From: Solitalea lacus
GTDB taxonomy: Bacteria > Bacteroidota > Bacteroidia > Sphingobacteriales > Sphingobacteriaceae
Assembly (NCBI RefSeq): GCF_022014595.1
Contig: NZ_CP091740.1
Coordinates: forward strand, 1,972,200-2,036,199
Direction of reading: 5' to 3'
Length of the DNA: 64,000 nucleotides
In this document: positions 20,705-42,003 of the stretch, piece by piece
Numbering within the stretch: position 1 is the first letter of the stretch
Layout: every line of letters begins with the position of its first letter
Made by a program: the position numbers and the translations under genes
The notes under the pieces: generated by a model
The model's database searches: none
Seen by the model: the letters and a program-made list of their open reading frames with translations, nothing else
Told to the model about the DNA's origin: nothing

Positions 20705-20789
20705 GGAAAGTTGGCAGAGTGGTCGAATGCGGCGGTCTTGAAAACCGTTGACTGTAACAGGTCCGGGGGTTCGAATCCCTCACTTTCCG
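20705..20789 (+). tRNA. tRNA-Ser (anticodon UGA)
   Basis: Seven-bp acceptor stem GGAAAGT/ACTTTCC with discriminator G, anticodon loop CTTGAAA with TGA at 20739-20741, long class II variable arm as expected for Ser, and T arm GGGGGTTCGAATCCCTC. CCA is not encoded. Its 3' end (from GGTTCGAAT) recurs at 41728, marking it as the integration site of the island to the right. Confidence 0.97.
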
Positions 20790-20925
20790 CTCCCTACTTA
20801 ATCAAAAAGTAACAAACGCTGTAAATTGAATGATTTACAGCGTTTTTGTTGTGTGCCGTGCATATCTATAAACTAGGAGGTGCAAGTCCTCTATGGGGGT
20901 CGGTAGTTACCAACCATTAGCCAAG
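20768..20925. repeat. Left 158-bp direct repeat (tRNA 3' end, terminator, intron 5' end)
   Basis: Matches 41728-41885 with about three differences. It covers 22 bp of the tRNA 3' end, the terminator and the first 75 bp of the intron. The tRNA part is the likely attachment core; the repeat is far longer than a normal att core. Confidence 0.9.
20814..20850 (+). terminator. tRNA-Ser terminator, target of the group II intron
   Basis: Twelve-bp stem AAACGCTGTAAA / TTTACAGCGTTT with an 8-nt loop, then TTTTGTT. The intron begins at the next base. The same terminator is present in the right copy (41774-41810). Confidence 0.92.
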
Positions 20926-22763
20926 AGCAAGGGTGTCCGTTGCGAAGCGGAATCTGAAGGAAGCTTGAGGCAAATCCCTGAACCGAGGCACACGAACCCT
21001 ATCAGGCATATCCAGCAGGATGAGATTGCAACACAAATCGAAGTCCAATAACTACCCGGATACTGGAGTGTAAATAAGGCGGTTACATGGGGAGAAAGTG
21101 TATAGGTTTACCACGGGAGGTCTGACAGACGTGCGGAAACAAGCAGTATGAAACACGGCTAACAATTGCTGTCAGAAGTCAGCAGAGACCAAAGTACGCT
21201 GCTACGAGCTAGCAGGGGAAGGGTCGAATCTTAAGAGGTGAGCATCAACTGAAAGTTACTGTATGAATGGTAGAAAGCAGAAAACGGAGCAAGACACCTG
21301 GCAGAGCGGAACTAGGTCGGCAACCGAATCAAGCTCTGGAGGGCAGACATATCTATGGATGACTGAAAAAGGAAACACCAACACAACGCAAGGGCAACAA
21401 GCCCAACTTCTGGAGTACATACTCTCGCCGTCGAACCTTAATGCGGCCTACAAACAAGTTAAGCGTAATGATGGAACAGGTGGGGTTGACGGGATGAGCG
21501 TAGAATTGCTTTTACCCTACTTACACTCCCACCGAGAAGTATTGCTTCATTCACTACAAAATGGGAGGTACAAGCCTCAAGCTGTTCGCCGGGTTGAAAT
21601 ACCCAAAGAGAACGGCAAAAAGCGAGCCTTAGGCATCCCCACGGTAGTGGATAGGGTCATTCAGCAGGCAATCACCCAACAATTAACACCTATTTACGAA
21701 CGACAGTTCTCGTCCAACAGTTACGGTTTTCGTCCAAAACGCAGTGCTCATCAGGCAATAAAACAATGCCAGGTCAACGCAAATGAGGGTTATCGTTACG
21801 TTGTGGATATGGATTTGGAAAAATTCTTCGATACTGTTAACCAAAGCAAGCTGATAGAGATTTTATCCCGAACCATCCCTGATGGCAGGGTGGTGTCATT
21901 GATACATAAATACCTAAAGGCAGGGGTAATGACGCATGGAGTTTTTCAAGCGACATCGATGGGGGTTCCGCAGGGAGGGAATTTAAGTCCATTATTGAGT
22001 AATGTAATGCTTAACGAATTGGACAAGGAGCTAACGGAAAGAGGACATCGTTTTGTCAGATACGCTGATGATTGTATGGTATTCTGTAAAAGCCGCCGAG
22101 CCGCCCAGAGGGTGCTTGTCGGCATTACAACCTACATTGAACAAAAGCTTTATCTGAAAGTCAATAGGGAGAAAACCAAGGTTGCACACATCAAGGACGT
22201 TAAGTTCTTGGGGTATGGATTTTACTTCAACAAAAATGGTTGCAAAATGCGCGCCCATAAGAAAAGTGTTGAAAAGATGAAAGAGAAAATCCGAGAACTG
22301 ACCTCACGGAGCAACGGATGGGGCAATGAACGCCGAAAGGAAGCAATAAGACAGTACATCACAGGCTGGCTTAACTATTTTCAGCTGGCAGACATGAAAG
22401 GATTGTTGGAACGCATAGATGAATGGTATCGAAGAAGAATCAGGTCATTGATATGGAAACAATGGAAAAGTATCAAAACCCGAATTAGGAATCTGATAAA
22501 ACTGGATATCCCGAAAAACAAGGCAAAGGAATACGGCAACACAAGGAAAAGCTACTGGCATACAGCTAATAGTCCAATCCTTAGCAGAAGTATCACCAAT
22601 GAACGCCTTAAGCAGTCGGGTTACCTGTTCTTTACTGACTACTATCAAAAATTGCGTTGTGTAAATTAAGAAACCGCCGTATACCGAACGGTACGTACGG
22701 TGGTGTGAGAGGTCGGAAAATGAAATAGGAGGAAAACCTATTTTATTTTTCCTCCTACTCGAT
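20851..22763 (+). mobile_element. Group II intron (probable IIC) with maturase
   Basis: Starts with GTGTG directly after a terminator T-run. It ends near 22763 after a domain V-like hairpin (ACCGCCGTA / TACGGTGGT lower stem, 2-nt bulge, GAAC loop, about 22671-22705) and a domain VI-like hairpin rich in CCTCC/GGAGG. The domain V triad reads CGC, as I recall for IIC introns. Insertion behind a hairpin terminator, length about 1.9 kb and a maturase without endonuclease domain all fit class C. The 3' border is uncertain by a few bases. Confidence 0.85.
21263..22669 (+). CDS. ltrA: Group II intron reverse transcriptase/maturase
   Basis: 468 residues (or 436 from a second ATG at 21359, which fits the usual start better). 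RT motifs in order: GGVDGM near 73, KRALGIPTVVDRVIQQ, SYGFRPKRSAHQA near 153, YVVDMDLEKFFDTV, MGVPQGGNLSPLL near 233, and active-site YADD at 267. The maturase X domain with GIIM features (WLNYFQLADM ... LIWKQWK) follows. No HNH endonuclease domain is present. It splices the intron and copies it into new sites. Confidence 0.95.
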   Translation: MNGRKQKTEQDTWQSGTRSATESSSGGQTYLWMTEKGNTNTTQGQQAQLLEYILSPSNLNAAYKQVKRNDGTGGVDGMSVELLLPYLHSHREVLLHSLQNGRYKPQAVRRVEIPKENGKKRALGIPTVVDRVIQQAITQQLTPIYERQFSSNSYGFRPKRSAHQAIKQCQVNANEGYRYVVDMDLEKFFDTVNQSKLIEILSRTIPDGRVVSLIHKYLKAGVMTHGVFQATSMGVPQGGNLSPLLSNVMLNELDKELTERGHRFVRYADDCMVFCKSRRAAQRVLVGITTYIEQKLYLKVNREKTKVAHIKDVKFLGYGFYFNKNGCKMRAHKKSVEKMKEKIRELTSRSNGWGNERRKEAIRQYITGWLNYFQLADMKGLLERIDEWYRRRIRSLIWKQWKSIKTRIRNLIKLDIPKNKAKEYGNTRKSYWHTANSPILSRSITNERLKQSGYLFFTDYYQKLRCVN

Positions 22764-22953: not shown

Positions 22954-24177
22954 ATGAACAAAACATTTAACCTGCTCTTTTACGTAAAGAGAAACAAACT
23001 CCTTGCAAACGGCACAGTTCCCATTTACTTGCGCATCACCATTGACGGCAAGCAAACTGAAATTGCCTCCAAACGATACATCGAACCCAAAAAATGGAAT
23101 CGCATGGCTCAAAAAGTAAATGGTAATTCAGAAGAAGTCAAATCCCTGAACGCTTATCTTAAAACCTTAGAACAGCAGGCTTATGAAGCCTATCATGCTT
23201 TGCTTAAAAAAGGTTCGACAGTAACAACCGTCAGCTTAAAAAACAAATTACTTGGATCGGATGAAACAGCACGGACCTTGATTCCCATTTTTGAAGAGCA
23301 CAACCAAAGAATGGAGGCCCTGCTGGGCCAGGAATATTCTGCGGGAACATTGGAACGCTACAAGACCTCTCTTAAGCACACCACCGACTTTTTAAACTGG
23401 AAGTTTAACCTAAGAGATATTGATATTCGAAAGATTGATCATCACTTTATTACTGAATATGAATTTTACTTACGCAGCATTCGTAAATGCAGTAATAATA
23501 CAGCCGTGAAGTATATCAAGAACTTTGGCAAGATCATCCGTATTTGCCTGGCCAACGGCTGGTTGGACAAGAACCCGTTTATAAACTATAAAGCTAAAAT
23601 AAAAGAAGTGGTACGTGAATATTTAACCGCTGAAGAAATTCAAAGCATTACTAACAAAGAATTCTCCATTGAACGATTAAGTATTGTTCGCGATATCTTC
23701 CTGTTCAGCTGCTTTACCGGACTCGCCTACGCTGACGTAAAGAAACTCAAACGCTCAGAAATCCAGAAAGGAATTGATGATGAATTGTGGATTTACACCT
23801 CTCGTAAGAAAACCGATACTACATCACGTATTCCCTTGCTACCTTCTGCTATTGCCATTCTAAATCGTTACCAGGATAACATTGAATGTGAATACAAAGA
23901 CTTGCTACTACCCGTTTTAAGCAATCAAAAAATGAATGCTTATTTAAAAGAAATTGCTGATTTATGCGGCATCAAAAAGCAGCTCACCTATCATATTGCC
24001 AGGCATACTTTTGCCACTACTGTTACCTTATCCAATGGGGTTCCGATTGAAAGTGTAAGTAAGATGCTGGGGCATATTAATATTAAAACCACCCAGCATT
24101 ATGCTAAGATCTTGGATATTAAGGTAAGTGAGGACATGAAGCGACTTAAGCTGAAGCTTAAAGTGGCTATCAAATGA
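22954..24177 (+). CDS. Site-specific tyrosine integrase of the island
   Basis: 407 residues in the Bacteroidota mobile-element layout: an arm-binding-like N-terminal beta region (LFYVKRNKLLANGTVPIYLRITIDG), a SAM-like core-binding domain (about 105-215), and the catalytic domain with H347, R350 (HIARHTFAT), H374 (LGHINIKTT) and the nucleophile Tyr383. The first catalytic Arg is replaced: the segment reads FTGLAYADVKKL. This is also known for IntDOT-type enzymes. It should insert the island at tRNA-Ser. Confidence 0.93.
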   Translation: MNKTFNLLFYVKRNKLLANGTVPIYLRITIDGKQTEIASKRYIEPKKWNRMAQKVNGNSEEVKSLNAYLKTLEQQAYEAYHALLKKGSTVTTVSLKNKLLGSDETARTLIPIFEEHNQRMEALLGQEYSAGTLERYKTSLKHTTDFLNWKFNLRDIDIRKIDHHFITEYEFYLRSIRKCSNNTAVKYIKNFGKIIRICLANGWLDKNPFINYKAKIKEVVREYLTAEEIQSITNKEFSIERLSIVRDIFLFSCFTGLAYADVKKLKRSEIQKGIDDELWIYTSRKKTDTTSRIPLLPSAIAILNRYQDNIECEYKDLLLPVLSNQKMNAYLKEIADLCGIKKQLTYHIARHTFATTVTLSNGVPIESVSKMLGHINIKTTQHYAKILDIKVSEDMKRLKLKLKVAIK

Positions 24178-24215: not shown

Positions 24216-24644
24216 ATGACTAATCAAATCGTTAAACGCGTGGTAGTTGTGCACTGGAAAAACAAAGCGAAATGCCAATGGGAAGTTTTTTCCAATCTTA
24301 AAAATTTCTGCCTGAGTTATCCGGAATATAATTACAATACGCTGAATAATTATCTCAGTAAGGCTAAAACTGCCTACGAAAATGATACTGTTCGCATTGA
24401 ACGAAAGCCGATTATTAGTCAACCTAAAATGAAAGAAGAAGTTATGGTTACCCGTCAGATTATGCCGGTTGTAAACAGAGTGGCAATGAGCCAGGCAAAG
24501 GAAAGCACCAAGGATTTGGACTATTGGCTTTCCCAACCAACTGAAAAAAGAATTGAAGCCGTGACGTTTATTATTTCGCAATCGCTTAAAAAAGGTGAAA
24601 GCATGAATAAAGCCATCATTAACAAACAACTAATGAAGCCATGA
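24216..24644 (+). CDS. Small protein paired with a nucleotidyltransferase, putative antitoxin
   Basis: About 142 residues from the ATG at 24216; a frame from 24174 overlaps the integrase stop by ATGA but would add a hydrophobic leader and lies over a TATATTTG (-7-like) element at 24191-24198, so the later start is preferred. The C-terminal DLDYWLSQPTEKRIEAVTFI is like the short YW..R..ERI.A..FLR proteins found ahead of DUF6036/AbiEii-like nucleotidyltransferases. Overlaps the next gene by 4 bp (ATGA). The N-terminal part is unrecognised. Confidence 0.55.
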   Translation: MTNQIVKRVVVVHWKNKAKCQWEVFSNLKNFCLSYPEYNYNTLNNYLSKAKTAYENDTVRIERKPIISQPKMKEEVMVTRQIMPVVNRVAMSQAKESTKDLDYWLSQPTEKRIEAVTFIISQSLKKGESMNKAIINKQLMKP

Positions 24645-25132
24645 TATTAGCAAGGGATTTTGAGGATTTTATACAACTGCTCAACAAGTATGCTGTTGAA
24701 TACATGGTGGTAGGTGGGTATGCACTTGCTTTTCATGGCAAGCCACGTCATACGGGTGATTTGGATATTTGGATTAATATTTCTGAAGTTAACGCTGAGA
24801 AGCTGCTTAAGGTATTAAATGAATTTGGCTTGTCGGCTTTAGGTTTTGAAAAAGAAGATTTTTTAAAACCGGGTTATATTACCCAGATTGGTTACCCGCC
24901 GCTACGTATTGATATTCTCAATAACATTGATGGTCTTGAATTTAACCAGGCAATAAAAAACGTGCAGCAGTTAAAAGCCGATAATCTGACGATTAACTAC
25001 ATAGGCTTGCAAGATTTTATTACGAACAAGCAATCTTCCGGCCGAAGCCAGGATTTGACCGATATTAAAGAGATTAAAAATAAAATGGATGAAAAAGTAG
25101 TAAAGAAAAAAAGGCTACGACCAAAGAAATAA
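24641..25132 (+). CDS. Nucleotidyltransferase-fold protein (DUF6036/AbiEii-like), putative toxin
   Basis: 163 residues. MVVGGYALAFHGKPRHTGDLDIWI (about 22-45) holds the GG...DxD metal-binding motif of the nucleotidyltransferase superfamily; a lysine-rich tail follows. Such two-gene units on mobile elements behave as type IV-like or tRNA-modifying toxin-antitoxin modules in some cases (AbiE, MenT). Translational coupling with the upstream gene supports a pair. The target cannot be told from sequence. Confidence 0.65.
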   Translation: MILARDFEDFIQLLNKYAVEYMVVGGYALAFHGKPRHTGDLDIWINISEVNAEKLLKVLNEFGLSALGFEKEDFLKPGYITQIGYPPLRIDILNNIDGLEFNQAIKNVQQLKADNLTINYIGLQDFITNKQSSGRSQDLTDIKEIKNKMDEKVVKKKRLRPKK

Positions 25133-31586: not shown

Positions 31587-31949
31587 ATGGGCTTCAAAAA
31601 CAGTCAGCAAAATGAAACTAAAAGGCGATTACCGGGCAGGCCGAAAAAAGGAATCAAGCGGAGTGAGGTAATTATGGTGCGGCTGACACCTACCGAGCGG
31701 CTCCTGATTGAAAACAAGGCGAAAAAGGCCGGGCTGAAAATAAGTGAATGGTTCCGTAAGGCAGCCAAACAGGCGGAGGTTGTGGCTAGAATTTCTGTGC
31801 AGGAGGCTAATTGGTTTCGCATCCTGGCAGGCATGGCCAATAATTTGAACCAGCTGACCCGTCAAAGTCATGTGTACGGGCTTGCGCTCATCGAAAAGGA
31901 CTTAAAACAGATGCTTGACAAAATAGAGAACCTGCTAAATCGCTCCTAG
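31587..31949 (+). CDS. mobC: MobC-like relaxosome protein
   Basis: 120 residues. Basic N-terminus, then MVRLTPTERLLIENKAKKAGLKISEWFRKAA (ribbon-helix-helix-like) and NWFRILAGMANNLNQLTRQSH, the typical MobC/BfmB-type signature. It helps the relaxase bind and open oriT. It ends 2 bp before the relaxase gene. A candidate oriT lies just upstream. Confidence 0.88.
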   Translation: MGFKNSQQNETKRRLPGRPKKGIKRSEVIMVRLTPTERLLIENKAKKAGLKISEWFRKAAKQAEVVARISVQEANWFRILAGMANNLNQLTRQSHVYGLALIEKDLKQMLDKIENLLNRS

Positions 31950-31951
31950 CA

Positions 31952-32896
31952 ATGATCGGCAAACAATTATCCGGCAGAAGCTTTAAAGGCTGCCTTCGGT
32001 ATTTAGTGCTGAAACCCGAAGCGGTGATTCTGGAAAGTCAGGGCGTGAGCGCTTTAAACGTCAACACTTTGATTCGTGACTTTGACCGTCAGCGGAAACT
32101 GAACCCAAACTTGGGCAAAGCGGTCGGCCACTTGATTCTCAGCTGGAGTAAAGAAGATAAAGCTAAGCTCAGTGCTACCATCATGAAAGAGCGGGCAAAG
32201 GAATACTTGAACTGCATGAATATTCGGGATACCCAGTTTGTCATTATTCAACACAAGGATCGCGAGCACGCACACCTGCACATCGTTTATAACCGTGTAG
32301 CCAATAACGGTAAAACCATTTCGGATGCTAACAACTGGAGGCGAAACGTAAATGTCTGCAAGGAATTGACATTAAAATACGGGTATTATTTGGGAAGAGG
32401 AAAAGGACTGGTAAACAGAAAATCGCTTAGGGGCAAGGATGGCCTGCGTTATGAACTATATGATTCCATTCATACTGTTTTACGAACCTCCAGCAATTGG
32501 GAACAGTTGGAAGCAGCTCTGCTTGAAAAGGGCATAATGATCCAGTATAAGTACCAACGTGGAACGAATACCATTCAGGGCATTTCCTTTGGCAAGGATG
32601 GAATAGTTTTAAAAGGTTCTGCTATTGACCGGTCACTCAGTTATGCATGCTTAAATAAACAATTGTTGCAGAACCGAATTCGGCTGAACGCTTACCCTCA
32701 TTCAAAACAAGCTTCTTTAAGGTTAAAGAATGAACCTGCAATGAGTGATAATTCACATCAGTGGAAATCCCCCCAAAGTGAAAACCTACTGGAAGTACTG
32801 CTAAAACCCGAACATTCCAGTTATAATGCTGTATCTGATTTTGAATGGCAGTTTAAACGAAAAAAGAAGAAAAAGAAGAAACGGCAAAGCTTATAA
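31952..32896 (+). CDS. Relaxase/mobilization nuclease (MobA-like, MOBP group)
   Basis: 314 residues. Near the N-terminus FKGCLRYLVLKP includes a candidate nucleophile Tyr (about 15); DREHAHLHIVYNRV (about 103-116) is the HxH metal motif. A long basic, lysine-run C-terminus ends the protein. It should nick oriT and lead the single strand through a helper pore. Shorter than many relaxases, with no primase or helicase extension. Confidence 0.9.
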   Translation: MIGKQLSGRSFKGCLRYLVLKPEAVILESQGVSALNVNTLIRDFDRQRKLNPNLGKAVGHLILSWSKEDKAKLSATIMKERAKEYLNCMNIRDTQFVIIQHKDREHAHLHIVYNRVANNGKTISDANNWRRNVNVCKELTLKYGYYLGRGKGLVNRKSLRGKDGLRYELYDSIHTVLRTSSNWEQLEAALLEKGIMIQYKYQRGTNTIQGISFGKDGIVLKGSAIDRSLSYACLNKQLLQNRIRLNAYPHSKQASLRLKNEPAMSDNSHQWKSPQSENLLEVLLKPEHSSYNAVSDFEWQFKRKKKKKKKRQSL

Positions 32897-33169: not shown

Positions 33170-33411
33170 TTAAAAATTAACTATTTAAACGCTTGAAACT
33201 TTGCAACAGCATATATAGGGTTTTGCAAACTTGCAAACTCGCTCAATTTTGTGTTGCCCAATTTACACCTTATCTCCCTATTCTGCTTTTTACCAAAAAA
33301 TGAAAAAAATAAGATTATTTTAACCAATAGTTAATTAGTATATTTTTACATTTGCAGCGCAACAAACAACAGACACCAATACCAAGAATTATAAAAAAAG
33401 ATATTTAAGAA
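33170..33411. other. Non-coding spacer with TTGCAA repeats
   Basis: AT-rich; TTGCAA occurs three times (33201, 33223, 33231), the last two as a TTGCAAAC direct repeat. No gene seen. Probably holds the promoter for the tRNA-like element and HEPN gene. Confidence 0.35.
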
Positions 33412-33486
33412 ACAGCTGTAGTGTAATTTGGAATAACACGCCTTACTGTTAGTTTGGTAATCCTGGTTCGATTCCAGGCAGTTGAG
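33412..33486 (+). tRNA. tRNA-Asn(GUU)-like sequence, possibly degenerate
   Basis: Folds as a 75-nt tRNA: acceptor ACAGCTG/CAGTTGA (6 of 7 pairs), U8-A9, D stem GTGT/ACAC with GG in the loop, G26, 7-nt anticodon loop CTGTTAG (GTT at 33447-33449 region), 4-nt variable loop, and a perfect T arm CCTGG-TTCGATT-CCAGG. Flaws: A-A at 1:72 and two U-U mismatches in the anticodon stem. The acceptor 3' strand can also pair with CTCAACTGCC at 33508-33517. It could be an island-borne tRNA, a decoy, or a remnant of an integration site. Confidence 0.5.
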
Positions 33487-33534
33487 GGCGAAATAAATAA
33501 GTTCTCTCTCAACTGCCTTTACCGCATTTATTTT

Positions 33535-34242
33535 ATGGTACTAACACCAACAAATGAACAACAATTTCATCGTGATTTCAGTAAAAATGTAGCTTCTATG
33601 GAAGCGACACGAAGAAAAGTGAATTCTCAAATCAACGATTCATTAAGACGAGACGATGAATTTTCTTTGAAAATATACACAAACCTTTATTTATTGGTTT
33701 ATAGTGCGTGGACAGAGGCTTCATTAATTAAATTAGTGCATACCCCATTCGGCTTTACAATAGAAGAAAAGAAAAAAATACTTAAAGACAAGGATATAAT
33801 TAATAAGTGGAAAAAATGCGTTAATACTGCTTTTAGTAAATTCCGTAATAACGGTTCAGAAATACCCAATAAGAAAAAGAAAATACACAAGTTAATTGAT
33901 GACTATCTAAAAACTCAAGCTCAAATTAGAAACAAAATAGCTCATGGTCAATGGGAATTTCCCTTACACAAAAACAATATTACACACGACAATGAAGCAC
34001 AAACATTGATGAATTTAATTGATGTAATGCAAATAGACATTTGGTTTGAAGTGTTTAAGGAAATAATTGAAATTGTAAGAGGGCTTATTGATGCAAGACC
34101 CAAAAACAATCATATCGCCCATTATAATTATTACTTTACACGTCTTACTAATATTCAGGCAATAATTGATGAAAGAAAAACCTGGACACTTGCTGACAAA
34201 AAGAAACGGCTAAAACTAAAACCAAGAAGAATTGGTAACTAA
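33535..34242 (+). CDS. HEPN-like protein with Rx4H motif
   Basis: 235 residues from the ATG at 33535; the frame is open to 33454 but that part overlaps the tRNA-like sequence. All-helical. IRNKIAHGQWEF places R132 and H137 in the Rx4-6H active site shared by HEPN RNases. An earlier helix YLLVYSAWTEASLIKLV is also typical of large HEPN proteins. Followed by its own terminator. Location just ahead of an RM operon suggests a defence role by RNA cleavage; inferred. Confidence 0.65.
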   Translation: MVLTPTNEQQFHRDFSKNVASMEATRRKVNSQINDSLRRDDEFSLKIYTNLYLLVYSAWTEASLIKLVHTPFGFTIEEKKKILKDKDIINKWKKCVNTAFSKFRNNGSEIPNKKKKIHKLIDDYLKTQAQIRNKIAHGQWEFPLHKNNITHDNEAQTLMNLIDVMQIDIWFEVFKEIIEIVRGLIDARPKNNHIAHYNYYFTRLTNIQAIIDERKTWTLADKKKRLKLKPRRIGN

Positions 34243-34263: not shown

Positions 34264-34306
34264 ACCCCCCGGAGAATTTTCAACCAATTCTCTGGGGATT
34301 TTTGTT
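34264..34306 (+). terminator. Terminator after the HEPN-like gene
   Basis: CCCCGGAGAATT / AATTCTCTGGGG with a short loop, then ATTTTTG. Confidence 0.85.
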
Positions 34307-34537
34307 AAATAAGAGTAAGAGGGCGATAAATGCTCCATGACTTACTATAACTTTTCCTCCAGCTTAAAGAATTCAAGTAGTTGATGCTGTGTGAATTCCA
34401 TTTTTGCAATTATCAACTATGAAATAAGCTATAAATACCAGTACAGTTTCTACATTTTTGTTATTTTGCGACTTGGAAAAAAATAAAAACGCTGCCATTT
34501 TAACCATTTTACCTGATAAGCTGCAATTGTTTTGAAA

Positions 34538-37510
34538 ATGACAACAATAGTCAATGAATCCCAAATAGAATATGGCTTCGTCGGAAAACTAACCGATCTT
34601 AAATATACCCACCGGCCGGATATACGAGATCGTCACTCGCTGGAGCTAAACTTCCGAAACAAATTCGAAGCACTGAATCGAGTCCGTCTTTCAGACACCG
34701 AATTTGCCCGCCTCCGGGATGATATCATTACAGCCGACGTGTTTCAAGCGTCAAAAACCCTGCGCCAGCGCAACACTTTTATTCGTGAAGATGGAACGCC
34801 TTTACATTATTCGTTGGTAAATATTACCGACTGGTGCAAAAACGAGTTTGAGGTGATCAACCAGTTGCGGATGAATACTGAAAACAGTAGTCATCGATAC
34901 GACGCTATATTGTTGATAAATGGCGTTCCTGTGGTGCAGATTGAATTGAAGACCTTACAGATCAGTCCGCGCCGTGCCATGCAGCAGATTGTGGATTATA
35001 AAAATGATCCGGGCAATGGCTATACCAATTCATTACTTTGTTTCATGCAGTTGTTTATTGTGAGCAACCGAAGCAACACTTATTACTTTGCCAACAACCG
35101 CAACCAACATTTTAATTTCAATGCCGACGAACAATTCCTGCCGGTGTACAAATGGGCAAAGGAAGACAATAAGAAAGTAGACAACCTATATGATTTTGCC
35201 GAGAAATTTCTGGCCAAATGCACACTGGGAGAAATGATCAGCCGCTATATGGTGCTGGTGGAAAGTGAGCAAAAACTATTAGTGATGCGGCCCTACCAGA
35301 TCTATGCGGTAAAAGCCATCGTGGAGTGTATCCATCAAAACAGGGGCAATGGTTATATCTGGCATACAACGGGTAGTGGTAAAACATTGACCTCATTCAA
35401 AGCATCTACATTATTAAAAGACAACCCGGATATTGAAAAATGTTTGTTTGTAGTGGATCGTAAAGACCTTGACAGGCAAACCCGTGAGGAGTTCAACAAG
35501 TTCCAGGATGGATGTGTGGAAGAGAACACCAATACCGAAACGCTGGTTCGTCGTATGCTGTCGGAAGATTATGCCGATAAGGTAATCGTTACTACCATTC
35601 AAAAATTAGGGCTGGCACTGGACCCCAATCATAAGCAGAAGTTTAAGGAGCGCTTGCAACCGCTGAGTGATAAAAGACTGGTCATTATTTTCGACGAATG
35701 CCATCGCTCACAGTTTGGCGAAAACCACCAGACCATCAAGGAATTTTTTCCAAAGGCACAGCTCTTTGGCTTTACAGGTACTCCCATTTTTGAAGCCAAT
35801 GCATCATACCAGCAGATACAGGACACAATCGGTTCTTACAAAACCACCGAAGATATTTTTCAAAAACTGCTGCACGCTTACACCATCACCCACGCTATTG
35901 AAGACCGCAATGTATTGCAGTTTCATATCGATTACTTTAAAGGTGAAGGCGAATATAAGGCAAAGTCCGGCGAGGCCATTGCACAGCAAGCCGTAGCAGA
36001 AGCCATACTGACCAAACACGGTGCGGCTACCAATGAACGCCGCTTCAATGCTATACTGGCGACAGCTTCCATCAATGAGGCCATTGCGTATTATAACTTG
36101 TTTAAAGATATTCAGGCAAAAAATAAGGCGATAGATGAAAACTTCCATCCGCTGAATATTGCCTGCGTGTTCTCACCTCCTGCCGATGGCAATAAAGACG
36201 TGCAACAACTGCAAGAAGATCTACAACAGGAAAAGGCCGACAATAAAGTGGCGCCGGAGGAAAAGAAGATTGCTTTAAAAGCCATCATCAGCGATTATAA
36301 CAAACAATTTGGAACCAATCATACTATTGGCGAGTTCGACCAGTATTACCAGGATGTACAGCAACGCATTAAAGACCATAAGTACAGCAATGCCGATTAC
36401 GCGGCAAAAAATAAAATTGACATGGTGATTGTGGTGGATATGCTGCTTACTGGTTTTGACAGCAAATACCTGAACACATTGTATGTAGATAAAAACCTGA
36501 AGTATCACGGATTGATACAGGCATTTAGCCGTACCAACCGTATTTTGAACGACAGCAAACCTTATGGCAACGTGCTGGACTTTCGCCAACAGCAGGCAGA
36601 TGTAGATGAAGCCATCGGCCTATTCTCCGGCGAACAGAAAGAACATGCACGGGAAATATGGCTGGTAGAACCTGCACCGGTGGTGATTGGCAAATATGAA
36701 AAAGCTGTGGAGGCATTGGAACAATTCATGCAATTGCAGGGATTGGAAAATAAGCCCGAAGAGGTAAATAATCTTAAAGGTGATATAGCCCGTACCGAAT
36801 TCATCAATCATTTTAAGGAAGTGCAGCGGCTGAAAACGCAGCTCGACCAGTACACCGACCTGGCGCCTGAACAGATATCGCAGATAGATGCCCTATTGCC
36901 GCCTGAAGAACTGCGTTCGTTTAAAGGGGCTTACCTGGAAACGGCCAAACGCCTGAAAGATATTCAGGAAAAAAGCGAGGATGCTGACCCGGTGGTGCAG
37001 CAACTGGATTTCGAATTTGTGCTCTTTGCTTCTGCCACTATCGACTACGATTACATTATGGGCCTTATAGCCCGCTACACGCAGCGACCGCCAAACAAAC
37101 AAAAAATGACCAAGGAGCAGCTTATTAACCTGCTCAACTCCAGCGCCAACCTGATGGACGAGCGGGACGATATTGTGGGCTACATCAACAGCCTGGAAGT
37201 GGGCAAAGGGTTGAGTGAAACAGAAATACGGGATGGCTATGAAAATTTTAAAGAGGAAAAAAGTGCAGCGGAACTGGCAGCCATTGCACAAAAGCATGGG
37301 CTGGACATAAAATCCTTAAAAACATTTGTAAACAACATCATCAGCCGGATGATTTTTGACGGGGAACAACTAAACGACCTCCTGGCACCACTGGAGCTGG
37401 GCTGGAAGGACCGCAGCAAAAAAGAACTGGCCTTGATGGAAGACTTAATACCACAATTAAAAAAATTAGCCCAAGGGCATGAAATATCCGGATTGAATGC
37501 TTATGAGTAA
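34538..37510 (+). CDS. hsdR: Type I restriction enzyme R subunit
   Basis: 990 residues from the ATG at 34538 (a TTG 6 bp ahead is less likely). N-terminal PD-(D/E)xK nuclease: RYDAILLINGVPVVQIELKT near 122-141. SF2 translocase: Walker A TTGSGKT near 277, DECH box near 386, TGTPIF, and later GFDSKYLNTLY and QAFSRTNR. It cuts DNA far from the site after translocation. Overlaps hsdS by 14 bp; first gene of hsdR-hsdS-prrC-like-hsdM. Confidence 0.96.
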   Translation: MTTIVNESQIEYGFVGKLTDLKYTHRPDIRDRHSLELNFRNKFEALNRVRLSDTEFARLRDDIITADVFQASKTLRQRNTFIREDGTPLHYSLVNITDWCKNEFEVINQLRMNTENSSHRYDAILLINGVPVVQIELKTLQISPRRAMQQIVDYKNDPGNGYTNSLLCFMQLFIVSNRSNTYYFANNRNQHFNFNADEQFLPVYKWAKEDNKKVDNLYDFAEKFLAKCTLGEMISRYMVLVESEQKLLVMRPYQIYAVKAIVECIHQNRGNGYIWHTTGSGKTLTSFKASTLLKDNPDIEKCLFVVDRKDLDRQTREEFNKFQDGCVEENTNTETLVRRMLSEDYADKVIVTTIQKLGLALDPNHKQKFKERLQPLSDKRLVIIFDECHRSQFGENHQTIKEFFPKAQLFGFTGTPIFEANASYQQIQDTIGSYKTTEDIFQKLLHAYTITHAIEDRNVLQFHIDYFKGEGEYKAKSGEAIAQQAVAEAILTKHGAATNERRFNAILATASINEAIAYYNLFKDIQAKNKAIDENFHPLNIACVFSPPADGNKDVQQLQEDLQQEKADNKVAPEEKKIALKAIISDYNKQFGTNHTIGEFDQYYQDVQQRIKDHKYSNADYAAKNKIDMVIVVDMLLTGFDSKYLNTLYVDKNLKYHGLIQAFSRTNRILNDSKPYGNVLDFRQQQADVDEAIGLFSGEQKEHAREIWLVEPAPVVIGKYEKAVEALEQFMQLQGLENKPEEVNNLKGDIARTEFINHFKEVQRLKTQLDQYTDLAPEQISQIDALLPPEELRSFKGAYLETAKRLKDIQEKSEDADPVVQQLDFEFVLFASATIDYDYIMGLIARYTQRPPNKQKMTKEQLINLLNSSANLMDERDDIVGYINSLEVGKGLSETEIRDGYENFKEEKSAAELAAIAQKHGLDIKSLKTFVNNIISRMIFDGEQLNDLLAPLELGWKDRSKKELALMEDLIPQLKKLAQGHEISGLNAYE

Positions 37511-38804
37511 AGAAACAATAAACGCAATGGTGCCGAAGTTGAGGTTTCCGGAATTTAAAGAAGAAGGCTGTAATATCGAGTCTTTTGGAGAACTGTATAC
37601 ATTTAAGGTTACAAACTCATTTTCGAGAGATAACCTAAACTATGAATCGGGCAAAGTTAAAAACATTCACTATGGTGATATTCACACGAAGTTCTCAACA
37701 CTATTTGATATAACGAAAGAAAAAGTTCCGTTTATCAATCCTTCTATATCAATTGAAAAAATCCAAGAAGAGAACTACTGTATTGAAGGTGATATAATTT
37801 TTGCAGATGCATCAGAAGATTTACAAGATGTCGGAAAAAGCATTGAAATAGTAAACCTAAACAATGAAAAATTATTGTCTGGTTTACATACTTTGTTAGC
37901 AAGACAGAAGGAGCCAAAGTTAATAGTTGGTTTTGGCGGGCATCTGTTCAGGTCTGGTGCTGTACGAGCACAAATTCAAAGAGAAGCACAAGGAGCAAAA
38001 GTTTTAGGTATATCTGGAACAAGGTTATCCAATATTAAAATTGGTTATCCTAACAACAAGCTTGAACAACAAAAAATCCGCGATTGCCTTTCTTCTTTAG
38101 ATCAATTATTATCTGCCGAAAGCCAAAAACTGGATGTACTCAAAGCCCATAAAAAAGGGCTGATGCAACAGCTATTCCCAGCCGAAGGCGAAACTGTACC
38201 CAAGTTTCGATTTCCTGAGTTTAAAGATAATGGGGATTGGGAGGAGACGACACTAAGCCAGGTTGCAAACTATGAAAATGGGAAAGCTCACGAGCAAGAT
38301 ATCGTAGAAACAGGCGATTATGTTGTTGTAAACTCTAAGTTCATTTCATCCGATGGTGAGGAAAGAAAATTTACAAATACAGCTTTTTGCCTGGCACGAA
38401 AAGGCGATATTTTAATGGTGCTCAGTGATGTTCCCAATGGCAAGGCGATAGCAAAATGTTTTCTTTTAGATGCTGATGAACTTTATACAGTTAATCAAAG
38501 AATTTGTCGAATAATACCATTTAATGTCAACAATGTCCTCTTGTATTACATATTAAACAGAAATCCTCATTTTTTGGCATTTGATGATGGTGTTAAGCAA
38601 ACTAATCTTCGAAAAGAAGATGTTTTAAACTGCCCAATGTTAATACCTAAAGACCCAATCGAACAACAAAAAATCGCCGAATGCCTTGCCGCCCTGGATG
38701 CGCTCATCACGGCACAGGCAGAACAAATAGGGCAGCTTAAGCAGCATAAAAAAGGGCTGATGCAGCAACTTTTCCCAAACCTTAATGATATTAATAATGG
38801 CTAA
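37497..38804 (+). CDS. hsdS: Type I restriction enzyme S (specificity) subunit
   Basis: 435 residues with the typical two-halves build. VPKLRFPEFK opens the first target-recognition domain and VPKFRFPEFKDNGDW the second; each half ends with a helical spacer, EQQKIRDCLSSLDQLLSAE..KKGLMQQLFP and EQQKIAECLAALDALITAQ..KKGLMQQLFP. The two domains define a split DNA target; the target cannot be told from sequence. The start may be 37497 or 37503. Overlaps hsdR by 14 bp and the next gene by 8 bp. Confidence 0.96.
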   Translation: MLMSKETINAMVPKLRFPEFKEEGCNIESFGELYTFKVTNSFSRDNLNYESGKVKNIHYGDIHTKFSTLFDITKEKVPFINPSISIEKIQEENYCIEGDIIFADASEDLQDVGKSIEIVNLNNEKLLSGLHTLLARQKEPKLIVGFGGHLFRSGAVRAQIQREAQGAKVLGISGTRLSNIKIGYPNNKLEQQKIRDCLSSLDQLLSAESQKLDVLKAHKKGLMQQLFPAEGETVPKFRFPEFKDNGDWEETTLSQVANYENGKAHEQDIVETGDYVVVNSKFISSDGEERKFTNTAFCLARKGDILMVLSDVPNGKAIAKCFLLDADELYTVNQRICRIIPFNVNNVLLYYILNRNPHFLAFDDGVKQTNLRKEDVLNCPMLIPKDPIEQQKIAECLAALDALITAQAEQIGQLKQHKKGLMQQLFPNLNDINNG

Positions 38805-39897
38805 TCAATTACCACCTTTTGCTGATATGTCAGCAGTTGTTGCCCACCTTCGTTCTATAAACAAAAAGAATACTTTGCTATACGCTTATAATGGTATTGG
38901 AAAAACTCGCTTGTCAATGGCGTTTCAGGATGCCGGTAAAAACGGTACAGAACGAGACACATTATACTTTAATGCCTTTACTGAAGACTTATTCTCGTGG
39001 GACAACGACTTGGAGAATGATTCTCAGCGGGTTTTACGCATGAATAGAAATTCAAGTTTTTTTTCTGGTATTCAGGAACAAGACATGGAGAACAAAATTC
39101 GTCCATTGTTACATCGTTACGCCGATTTCAACTTTCTGATAGATTATCAGAATTGGACTGTTAATTTCATGCGTGAAGTATTAGTAGATAGGACTGTACA
39201 AAATGTAGAGTATATAAAAATTTCAAGAGGAGAAGAGAATATTTTTATTTGGTGCTTCTTTTTGGCAGTCGCTCAATTAGCTATCGATAAGCAACCTGGT
39301 TATACCTGGGTGAAATATTTGTACATAGACGATCCAATTTCTTCACTTGATGATCATAATGCAATTGCAGTTGCCAGTCATTTGGCACAAATGTTAAAAA
39401 AAGAGGGCAATGAAGTAAAAACGATTATATCATCCCATCATACTCTGTTCTTTAATGTTATGTTTAATGAGTTGAAGAACGGTGTAAAATATTTTTTAAG
39501 CAAGGGGCCCAACCATGGAAGCTACATTTTAACTGATACAAGCGACACGCCCTATTTTTACCATGTTTCTTTATTGCAAGATTTGCGAAGAGCAGCCGAA
39601 TCTGGAAACCTATATACCTACCATTTTAATATTCTACGAAATGTTCTTGAGAAAACTGCAAATTTTCACGGATTTAAGAATTTTTCTTCATGTATTAAAC
39701 AGCTAGATGATGATCCAGAAGGTGTAGTATATGCCCGTATAATAAACATTTTAAGTCATGGTAATTATTCACTTTTTGAACCTACTGAGATGCTACCTGA
39801 AAACAAGGAATATTTTAGAAGGATCTTGAATGATTTTATGAACAATTACCGATTTAACCCTGAACTATTTCCAGAGGCAGTTGCACAAACAGCATAA
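38797..39897 (+). CDS. PrrC/RloC-like anticodon nuclease (ABC ATPase plus HEPN)
   Basis: 366 residues from the ATG at 38797 that overlaps the hsdS stop; PrrC of E. coli is of similar size (396). ATPase part: Walker A AYNGIGKT (30-37), ABC signature ISRGEE (142-147), Walker B/D-loop IDDPISSLDD (from 177), H-switch SSHH near 213. C-terminal part: R281-NVL-E285 and H321 in NILSHGNYS match the R-x3-E ... H catalytic set of PrrC/RloC (E-H spacing 36 here, 32 in PrrC). Lying between hsdS and hsdM it is well placed to be held silent by the RM complex and to cut tRNA when that is disturbed. Confidence 0.82.
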   Translation: MANQLPPFADMSAVVAHLRSINKKNTLLYAYNGIGKTRLSMAFQDAGKNGTERDTLYFNAFTEDLFSWDNDLENDSQRVLRMNRNSSFFSGIQEQDMENKIRPLLHRYADFNFLIDYQNWTVNFMREVLVDRTVQNVEYIKISRGEENIFIWCFFLAVAQLAIDKQPGYTWVKYLYIDDPISSLDDHNAIAVASHLAQMLKKEGNEVKTIISSHHTLFFNVMFNELKNGVKYFLSKGPNHGSYILTDTSDTPYFYHVSLLQDLRRAAESGNLYTYHFNILRNVLEKTANFHGFKNFSSCIKQLDDDPEGVVYARIINILSHGNYSLFEPTEMLPENKEYFRRILNDFMNNYRFNPELFPEAVAQTA

Positions 39898-39900
39898 ATT

Positions 39901-41538
39901 ATGACCGCTATAGAACAACAACAATTAGGTAAAACACTTTGGGCCATAGCAGATGATTTGCGCGGCGCCATGAATGCCGATGATTTCAGGGATTATATGC
40001 TGTCCTTCCTCTTTTTACGCTACCTGAGTGATAACTACGAGGCAGCTGTTAAAAAAGAATTAGGCTCGGATTATCCTGATACTCCTTTGGATGTTTTAAA
40101 AAAATTAGGCTATTCTACACCTTTAGAAGTTTGGTATGCAGAAAATCCTGACGATATAGAAGCCTTTGAGAAGCAGATGCGCCGTAAAGTGCATTATGTA
40201 ATAGAACCGCAATATCTTTGGAGCCATTTAGCAGAACTGGCAAGGAAACAAGATGTCGAATTATTGCATACACTGGAGAACGGTTTCAAGTTCATCGAAA
40301 ACCAATCCTTCGAAAGTAATTTCCAGGGGCTGTTCTCAGAGATCAATCTATCGTCCGACAAGCTGGGTAAAAGCTATAAAGAAAGAAATGCCAGACTTTG
40401 CACCATCTTGCAAAAAATAGCCGAAGGCATTGCCAGGTTCTCCACCAATACTGATATACTCGGCGATGCGTATGAATATTTAATTGGCCAGTTTGCCGCA
40501 GGCTCAGGGAAAAAAGCCGGAGAGTTTTATACCCCTCAACAGATATCGACCATCCTCTCTGAAATTGTAACACTAGATAGCCAGGACCCTGCTTTAGGCA
40601 AAAAAACAAAGCTGAGCAAGGTGCTGGATCTTACCTGCGGTTCGGGCTCACTATTATTAAATGTACGCCGCCAAATGGGGGCACATGGTATCGGCAAAAT
40701 TTACGGACAAGAAAAGAACATCACTACTTACAACCTTGCCCGTATGAACATGCTACTGCATGGGGTAAAGGATACCGAATTTGAAATACATCATGGGGAT
40801 ACTTTAGTGAATGACTGGGATATACTTAATGAGATGAACCCGGCAAAAAAGATGGAGTTCGATGCAATTGTATCCAATCCGCCTTTCAGTTTACGTTGGG
40901 AGCCTACAGAAGTACTAGGTGAAGATTTTCGTTTTAAAAACTATGGTTTGGCCCCAAAATCAGCAGCAGATTTTGCTTTCTTGTTACATGGTTTTCATTT
41001 CCTAGACAATGAAGGTACGATGGCCATCATCCTGCCCCATGGCGTACTGTTCCGTGGCGGTGCAGAAGAGCGTATTCGCGCCAAGCTATTAAAAGATCAC
41101 AACATAGATACAGTCATCGGTTTGCCTGCTAACTTGTTTTTTTCAACAGGTATTCCTGTTTGCATTATCGTATTAAAGAAGTGCAAAAAGTTTGACGATG
41201 TATTGTTCATTAACGCAGCAGAACATTTTGAAAAAGGGAAACGTCAAAACCGTTTAAGGGATGGAGATGGCAATGAGCCAAACGATATACGCAAAATTGT
41301 AGAGACGTATAAAAACCGGAGCGAAGAAGATCGTTATTCCCGTAAAGTTTCAATGGCAGAAATTGAGCAAAACGGATACAACCTCAATATCTCCCGCTAT
41401 GTAAGTACTTCAGTAGAAGAAGAGAAAATTGATTTGCAGGCAGTAAACAAAAGCGTGGTTGATTTAGAAAAGAAAATAGCTGAAGCAAAAAACAAGCACA
41501 ACCAATTTTTACAGGAATTGGGATTGCCTCTGATTTAA
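39901..41538 (+). CDS. hsdM: Type I restriction-modification M subunit (N6-adenine methyltransferase)
   Basis: 545 residues. N-terminal helical HsdM_N domain (LGKTLWAIADDLRG ... FLFLRYLSDNYE), then the methyltransferase: LDLTCGSGSLLLNV near 242 for SAM and SNPPFSLRW near 325, the catalytic NPPF of N6-adenine enzymes. C-terminal coiled helix pairs with HsdS. Begins 3 bp after the PrrC-like gene; last gene of the operon and of the island. Confidence 0.96.
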   Translation: MTAIEQQQLGKTLWAIADDLRGAMNADDFRDYMLSFLFLRYLSDNYEAAVKKELGSDYPDTPLDVLKKLGYSTPLEVWYAENPDDIEAFEKQMRRKVHYVIEPQYLWSHLAELARKQDVELLHTLENGFKFIENQSFESNFQGLFSEINLSSDKLGKSYKERNARLCTILQKIAEGIARFSTNTDILGDAYEYLIGQFAAGSGKKAGEFYTPQQISTILSEIVTLDSQDPALGKKTKLSKVLDLTCGSGSLLLNVRRQMGAHGIGKIYGQEKNITTYNLARMNMLLHGVKDTEFEIHHGDTLVNDWDILNEMNPAKKMEFDAIVSNPPFSLRWEPTEVLGEDFRFKNYGLAPKSAADFAFLLHGFHFLDNEGTMAIILPHGVLFRGGAEERIRAKLLKDHNIDTVIGLPANLFFSTGIPVCIIVLKKCKKFDDVLFINAAEHFEKGKRQNRLRDGDGNEPNDIRKIVETYKNRSEEDRYSRKVSMAEIEQNGYNLNISRYVSTSVEEEKIDLQAVNKSVVDLEKKIAEAKNKHNQFLQELGLPLI

Positions 41539-41727: not shown

Positions 41728-41885
41728 GGTTCGAATCCCTCACTTTCCGCTCCCTACTTCATCAAAAAGTAACAAACGCTGTAAATTGAATGATTTACAG
41801 CGTTTTTGTTGTGTGCCGTGCATATCTATAAACTAGGAGGTGCAAGTCCTCTATGGGGGTCCGTAGTTACCAACCATTAGCCGAG
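41728..41885. repeat. Right 158-bp direct repeat: tRNA-Ser 3' end, terminator and intron 5' fragment
   Basis: Copy of 20768-20925 with about three substitutions. The tRNA 3' fragment, the terminator (41774-41810) and the intron's first 75 bp (41811-41885) are present; then the sequence departs. Marks the right border of the island (attR side). Confidence 0.9.
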
Positions 41886-42003
41886 TACAACCTTTTTAGA
41901 CGTATCACCAAGAGAAATCCGCTCAGTTTAAGACCTTTTATGACTTCACCGACACTAAACAAAAAAGTAAGCACAGGAAGCCGAAAACTGATTAGAGTGG
42001 GCA

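Follow-up and report, generated by a model that had tools for sequence, protein, structure and literature searches.

A predicted PrrC-type anticodon nuclease gene in a type I restriction-modification operon on a mobile island of Solitalea lacus

Introduction

PrrC is described as a guardian that senses the inhibition of restriction (PMC12707154). In the prr locus of Escherichia coli, PrrC, which combines an ABC-ATPase with a nuclease triad (R320, E324, and H356 in the numbering of PMC2610378), is encoded in the operon of the restriction-modification (R-M) system EcoprrI, directly after hsdS, in the gene order hsdM-hsdS-prrC-hsdR. According to the same article, linkage to type IC R-M is reportedly invariable for PrrC orthologues. 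More recently, Azam et al. (2024; PMC11555353) described the PrrC170 system, in which HsdR, HsdS, PrrC, and HsdM were cloned from Klebsiella quasipneumoniae isolate 170 together with the 300 nucleotides preceding HsdR; we take this gene list as the physical order too. In their account, the system is active against phages T1 and T7, its PrrC is 35% identical to E. coli PrrC, and induction of this PrrC stops growth, with tRNA sequencing identifying tRNA-Lys as the target.

Here we analyzed a 64,000-nucleotide stretch of the Solitalea lacus genome (NZ_CP091740.1, positions 1,972,200 to 2,036,199 of the forward strand; hereafter the window, whose own positions are used throughout). The window holds the same four genes as the PrrC170 system as described, and its PrrC shows the same 35% identity to E. 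coli PrrC, in a host of a different phylum (Bacteroidota, as opposed to Klebsiella quasipneumoniae). From the gene content and the 35% figure we infer that PrrC170 belongs to the clade of the window protein. The Klebsiella protein used for comparison below is a K. quasipneumoniae plasmid copy (L146) and not PrrC170's own sequence, and its operon, unlike that of the window, additionally has genes for a TrlF ATPase and an RNA-binding protein. With the E. coli prr locus, the window shares the ABC-ATPase with nuclease triad, the R-M operon, and the position directly after hsdS, but it differs in gene order, in sequence (35% identity), and in belonging to another deep clade. RloC also has an ABC-ATPase and an R-x3-E...H nuclease set, but is described as roughly twice the length of the window protein, with a zinc-hook coiled coil, and as rarely present at an R-M locus (PMC2610378). 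Both the family and the operon type of the window gene are thus already known, the gene is well preserved, and a function has been shown for a relative; the PrrC family gains a Bacteroidota member borne on a mobile element, which is useful for annotation and settles no open question.

Results

The third gene of the operon encodes a predicted PrrC

The initial annotation had placed a PrrC-like anticodon nuclease gene between hsdS and hsdM, sharing 8 bp with the former and separated by 3 bp from the latter, and the ORF coordinates confirm this placement. The ORF spans 38785-39897 (+ strand; 370 aa) and contains an additional ATG at 38797; when read from this ATG, prrC (38797-39897), as delineated by ORF, profile, alignment, and structural model, specifies a 366-aa protein in which R281, E285, and H321 are present. 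The ABC-ATPase motifs that had been claimed were all found, namely Walker A (YNGIGKT), a signature-like SRGEEN, IDDPISSLDD, and a switch stretch SHH. With the motif list for PrrC taken from PMC2610378, the Walker A, signature, Walker B/D-loop, and switch histidine of the window protein align by eye with those of the E. coli protein.

Profile searches agreed with this assignment. The PADLOC PrrC model (PDLC02360) matched residues 13-360 of the 370-aa ORF with 461.4 bits (E 5e-139), in comparison to 491 bits for the E. coli anticodon nuclease and 473 bits for the Klebsiella relative, and Pfam AAA_13 scored 47.6 bits, above its cut-off of 36. No NCBIfam family exceeded its cut-off on the protein, and a search of the host genome at E 0.001 gave no other AAA_13 protein. 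There were also weaker matches to PDC-S06 (up to 64 bits) and LmuB (28 bits), which might be taken to favor RloC or another ABC-HEPN family instead of PrrC. However, the PrrC model beats the next model by 397 bits, RloC proteins are given as 658-897 aa in length (PMC2610378) against 366 aa here, and the window protein lacks a long insert separating its Walker A and signature motifs. An RloC identity was rejected on the basis of length and the missing insert, and we consider membership in any of these other families extremely improbable.

As the E. coli yardstick we used a 396-aa protein (L145) whose gene is annotated as "anticodon nuclease" in an hsdM-hsdS-X-hsdR locus; this is a strain B1 sequence with the published residue numbers, rather than the record of the original isolate. 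The window PrrC is 35.0% identical to this protein and 62.2% identical to the K. quasipneumoniae plasmid protein. The proposed catalytic residues R281, E285, and H321 align exactly to E. coli R320, E324, and H356, and homologs keep them as well, the triad being the same in each of the 114 aligned rows (112 different sequences; both the window protein and its copy, L120, are among the rows; L023, in which the PrrC reading frame is broken, was left out before alignment, and L143 likewise remained unaligned). Family membership, triad, and linkage to a type I R-M operon therefore all uphold the annotation, and judged by its sequence the third gene of the operon is a PrrC gene.

The surrounding operon looks intact and points to type IC

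prrC sits within a type IC R-M operon, with hsdS and hsdM adjoining it. The restriction subunit gene hsdR (34538-37510, +; profile and motifs), for which the ORF list gives a TTG start at 34532, encodes Walker A TGSGKT, DECH, and a nuclease-type IELK, as well as an EcoR124_C domain (Pfam, 234.5 bits) that points to type IC R-M. It is followed by the specificity subunit gene hsdS (37497-38804, +; profile and repeat search), which contains the internal direct repeats D4 and D5, and, after prrC, by hsdM (39901-41538, +; profile and motifs), for the N6-adenine methylase subunit with motifs SNPPF and GSG. By these features the operon looks intact and functional. A terminator-like hairpin (34267-34297, +; hairpin search) lies between an upstream HEPN-type gene and hsdR, although it is weak since the region holds 7 such sites compared with a mean of 7.8 in shuffles.

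Predicted structure of the window PrrC

An AlphaFold2 model of PrrC, built on a 48-row alignment for which 47 of 83 usable PrrC loci were used, had a mean pLDDT of 81.1 and a pTM of 0.67. Residues 6-257 of the model resemble the heads of Rad50 and SMC proteins (best Z 12.7, rmsd 3.2, 197 residues aligned), and the remainder is mainly helical (helices 255-269, 275-290, 310-319, and 334-350), with R281 and E285 on helix 275-290 and H321 just behind helix 310-319. Among the structure matches listed, the titles were ABC-type ATPases or complexes with one, and these matches hardly extend past residue 257; since ABC-type ATPases filled the match list, the missing HEPN row is no evidence against a HEPN fold. 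Following PMC3710099, in which PrrC is assigned to HEPN, we treat the C-terminal part as a putative HEPN domain. By sequence, no PDB chain was similar to the window PrrC up to E 10, and a profile comparison returned no clear solved relative (the best, a dynein chain, had E 0.11, and Rad50 chains had 0.53 and 0.75).

The order hsdR-hsdS-prrC-hsdM is widespread

The gene order of the operon had been put forward as unlike that of the E. coli prr locus. We examined 108 loci with 109 PrrC places, composed of 81 loci (L002-L082), 23 Bacteroidota loci (one of them L120, the copy from the window itself), and 4 viral-contig loci (the PrrC of one of which, L138, is the same as that of genome locus L057). 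One relative set consisted of the best 80 of 224 relatives, so the window's own clade is over-represented in it; the Bacteroidota sample is fairer, though cut at E 1e-40. Judged by detected hsd neighbors, the order hsdS-prrC-hsdM occurs at 98 of the 109 places. Downstream of prrC, the next detected hsd gene was hsdM at 100 places and hsdR at 7, the sequence being cut after prrC at the remaining 2; two places had hsdM after prrC and no hsd gene detected before it. hsdS was the detected upstream neighbor at 101 of 109 places, which fits the idea that PrrC may need to be synthesized beside the specificity subunit. Across 395 Bacteroidota genomes, 23 carried PrrC at E 1e-40 or better, with hsdM then following in 16 and hsdR in 7. 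A single nucleotide query found relatives in 83 of 5,426 E. coli genomes, and the four that were read have the hsdS-prrC-hsdM order. The earlier statement thus holds in that the window's order differs from the prr type, hsdM-hsdS-prrC-hsdR, but not in the sense of an unusual order: the window's order is the commoner one in both samples, is found in E. coli itself, and belongs to a system already published and tested. The hsdR-hsdS-prrC-hsdM arrangement is already known and widespread.

In a quick PrrC tree of the 114 rows, built with long-branch warnings, a branch with full support splits the nine rows followed by hsdR from all the others, so gene order, in its two forms hsdR-hsdS-prrC-hsdM and hsdM-hsdS-prrC-hsdR, tracks deep clades. 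The window's clade comprises 94 rows from Pseudomonadota, Bacillota, Bacteroidota, Chloroflexota, Spirochaetota, one archaeal MAG, and others.

Of the 98 places with the window's order, 85 have both the hsdS and the hsdM match no more than 300 bases from prrC. At the other 13, the hsdS or the hsdM match lies more than 300 bases away, leaving space for other genes or undetected ends, so packing is not always as tight as in the window. At 87 of 109 places the next long ORF starts no farther than 10 nt from the stop codon of prrC, a 4-nt overlap being the commonest case (61 of 109); these counts favor small distances because the nearest possible start was chosen.

At every one of the 109 places an hsd gene is the next detected neighbor on at least one side of prrC. 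Such constancy, like the Rad50-like ATPase head, would also suit an ABC-ATPase accessory that regulates restriction or DNA translocation and is no toxin. Nuclease residues that are invariant in all 114 rows are difficult to account for in a regulator, however, and the PrrC of the PrrC170 system is reported to stop growth upon induction (PMC11555353); we regard the accessory explanation as very unlikely and retain that of an anticodon nuclease.

At E 1e-5, none of the 50,697 phage records searched matched PrrC; viral contigs gave four loci. In 8 of the 108 PrrC loci (L018, L021, L025, L026, L027, L028, L032, and L082), and in L146 too, genes for a TrlF-family ATPase and an RNA-binding-domain protein lie between hsdR and hsdS. 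A Rhodocyclaceae MAG carries a tandem pair of PrrC restriction operons (L077:349-9876).

Proposed action and tRNA target

By analogy with EcoprrI, the window PrrC would be produced together with the type IC R-M subunits and would be bound and kept silent by the R-M enzyme; a phage that disables restriction would then release PrrC, which would cut tRNA-Lys. Although silencing, trigger, target, and a role in phage defense are each carried over from relatives, no result obtained here spoke against this overall scheme, and we hold it to be highly likely; prrC would be a suicide gene within the operon, its product probably cutting a lysine tRNA once a phage has disabled restriction. The presumed target exists in the host, as the 30 of 68 genome tRNA matches that were read include at least three genes for tRNA-Lys(UUU) and one for tRNA-Lys(CUU).

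The E. coli protein L145 has an aspartate at position 287, which we take to be the residue that recognizes tRNA-Lys. D250 of the window protein aligns there, in a part of the alignment that has gaps. The column is variable, 69 of the 114 rows having an aspartate, which suggests that tRNA specificity may differ among members of the family. This variation, and the mere 35% identity of the window PrrC to the E. coli protein, would be compatible with a PrrC-type anticodon nuclease that is under the same control and cuts a tRNA other than tRNA-Lys. We find this unlikely, given that the window protein has an aspartate aligned in this column and shares a large clade with the K. quasipneumoniae plasmid protein, and that PrrC170, with four genes alike, targets tRNA-Lys according to PMC11555353. 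A lysine tRNA remains our favored candidate target.

A tRNA-Asn gene and a stand-alone HEPN-type gene lie upstream of the operon

Upstream of hsdR, the island carries a divergent tRNA-Asn(GUU) gene (33412-33486, +) with imperfect acceptor and anticodon stems and no encoded CCA, which at 41.2 bits has the lowest score of the 68 listed tRNA matches of the genome. In a search of 295 genomes of the class, with at most three candidate places scored per genome, the matches listed comprised its own copy and one 29-base partial match in another genome (E 7e-4); a search with a longer stretch, two places scored per genome, gave none among the matches listed. A search of phage records up to E 1 did not retrieve the tRNA, and viral contigs had no exact 24-base match to it. 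A TAnnTTTG element, presumably a Bacteroidota promoter motif, is located upstream at 33347, which is weak evidence because the window holds 45 such sites on both strands. We also observed a possible hairpin with a 13-bp outer stem (33476-33518, +) ahead of the HEPN-type gene, in which the tRNA-Asn 3' half would pair with sequence downstream of it; a 109-nt fold over this hairpin had a z of -3.1, and the hairpin would compete with the tRNA-Asn fold. ARAGORN detected tRNA genes of mixed kinds in 10 of 85 PrrC loci; this raw count gives no sign of a conserved tRNA partner, and a general link between the island tRNA-Asn and PrrC loci was rejected. The three upstream of the hsdR match were tRNA-Asn in L024 (~1.15 kb), tRNA-Leu in L047 (~0.4 kb), and tRNA-Lys in L069 (~0.3 kb).

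Directly after the tRNA-Asn lies a stand-alone gene for a putative HEPN-type RNase (33535-34242, +), recognized by motif and predicted fold. Its product has the R-N-x3-H motif of HEPN toxins, as RNKIAHGQW, which all 6 aligned sequences share unchanged (the alignment omits L165). HEPN proteins head the list of matches to its predicted fold, with a best Z of 8.2 that is modest for a helical bundle; Foldseek gave no match to the model at E 0.001, and no Pfam family exceeded its cut-off on the protein. Among 395 Bacteroidota genomes the gene was found in one, the window's own, and its relatives were two distant plasmid genes (one on Raoultella plasmid L169) and six viral-contig genes (L163-L168). 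No type I genes were seen around L163, L164, or L169 in the ORFs or annotations read, and a profile comparison of PrrC with the upstream HEPN family found nothing. The tRNA-Asn and HEPN-type genes are tied to PrrC by position alone. One could picture the island as a layered module attacking translation, in which both act with the PrrC operon and the tRNA serves, for example, as a decoy, for self-protection, or as an RNA sensed by one of the nucleases; we give this reading very little credence.

The operon is carried by a mobile island at tRNA-Ser

The initial annotation had also put the operon on a mobile island, and its boundaries could be located. A 163-nt direct repeat delimits an island of ~21 kb at tRNA-Ser (20768-41890), with integrase and mobilization genes inside. 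The left repeat copy (20768-20930, +) starts in the 3' end of the tRNA-Ser gene (20705-20790), and the right copy (41728-41890, +) is 97% identical to it. The island encodes a tyrosine integrase (22954-24177, +; domain match), followed farther on by a NikA/MobC-like mobilization gene (31587-31949, +) and a relaxase gene (31952-32896, +), both assigned by ORF and Pfam. Directly behind the tRNA-Ser is a group II intron (20936-22763, +) with a reverse transcriptase gene at 21263-22669. The right repeat duplicates the stretch just ahead of the first matched intron domain and is presumably a truncated 5' end of the group II intron. In a genome of the same genus (L182), the DNA behind the same tRNA-Ser neighborhood aligns to the integrase gene with 69% identity over 906 columns; in the 16 kb read there, the rest of the island had no match. 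This sequence pattern fits tRNA-Ser as a re-used integration site. The island further carries a gene with a nucleotidyltransferase-like domain (DUF2204; 24641-25132, +) and a HEPN-domain gene (PF05168; 27288-28202, +).
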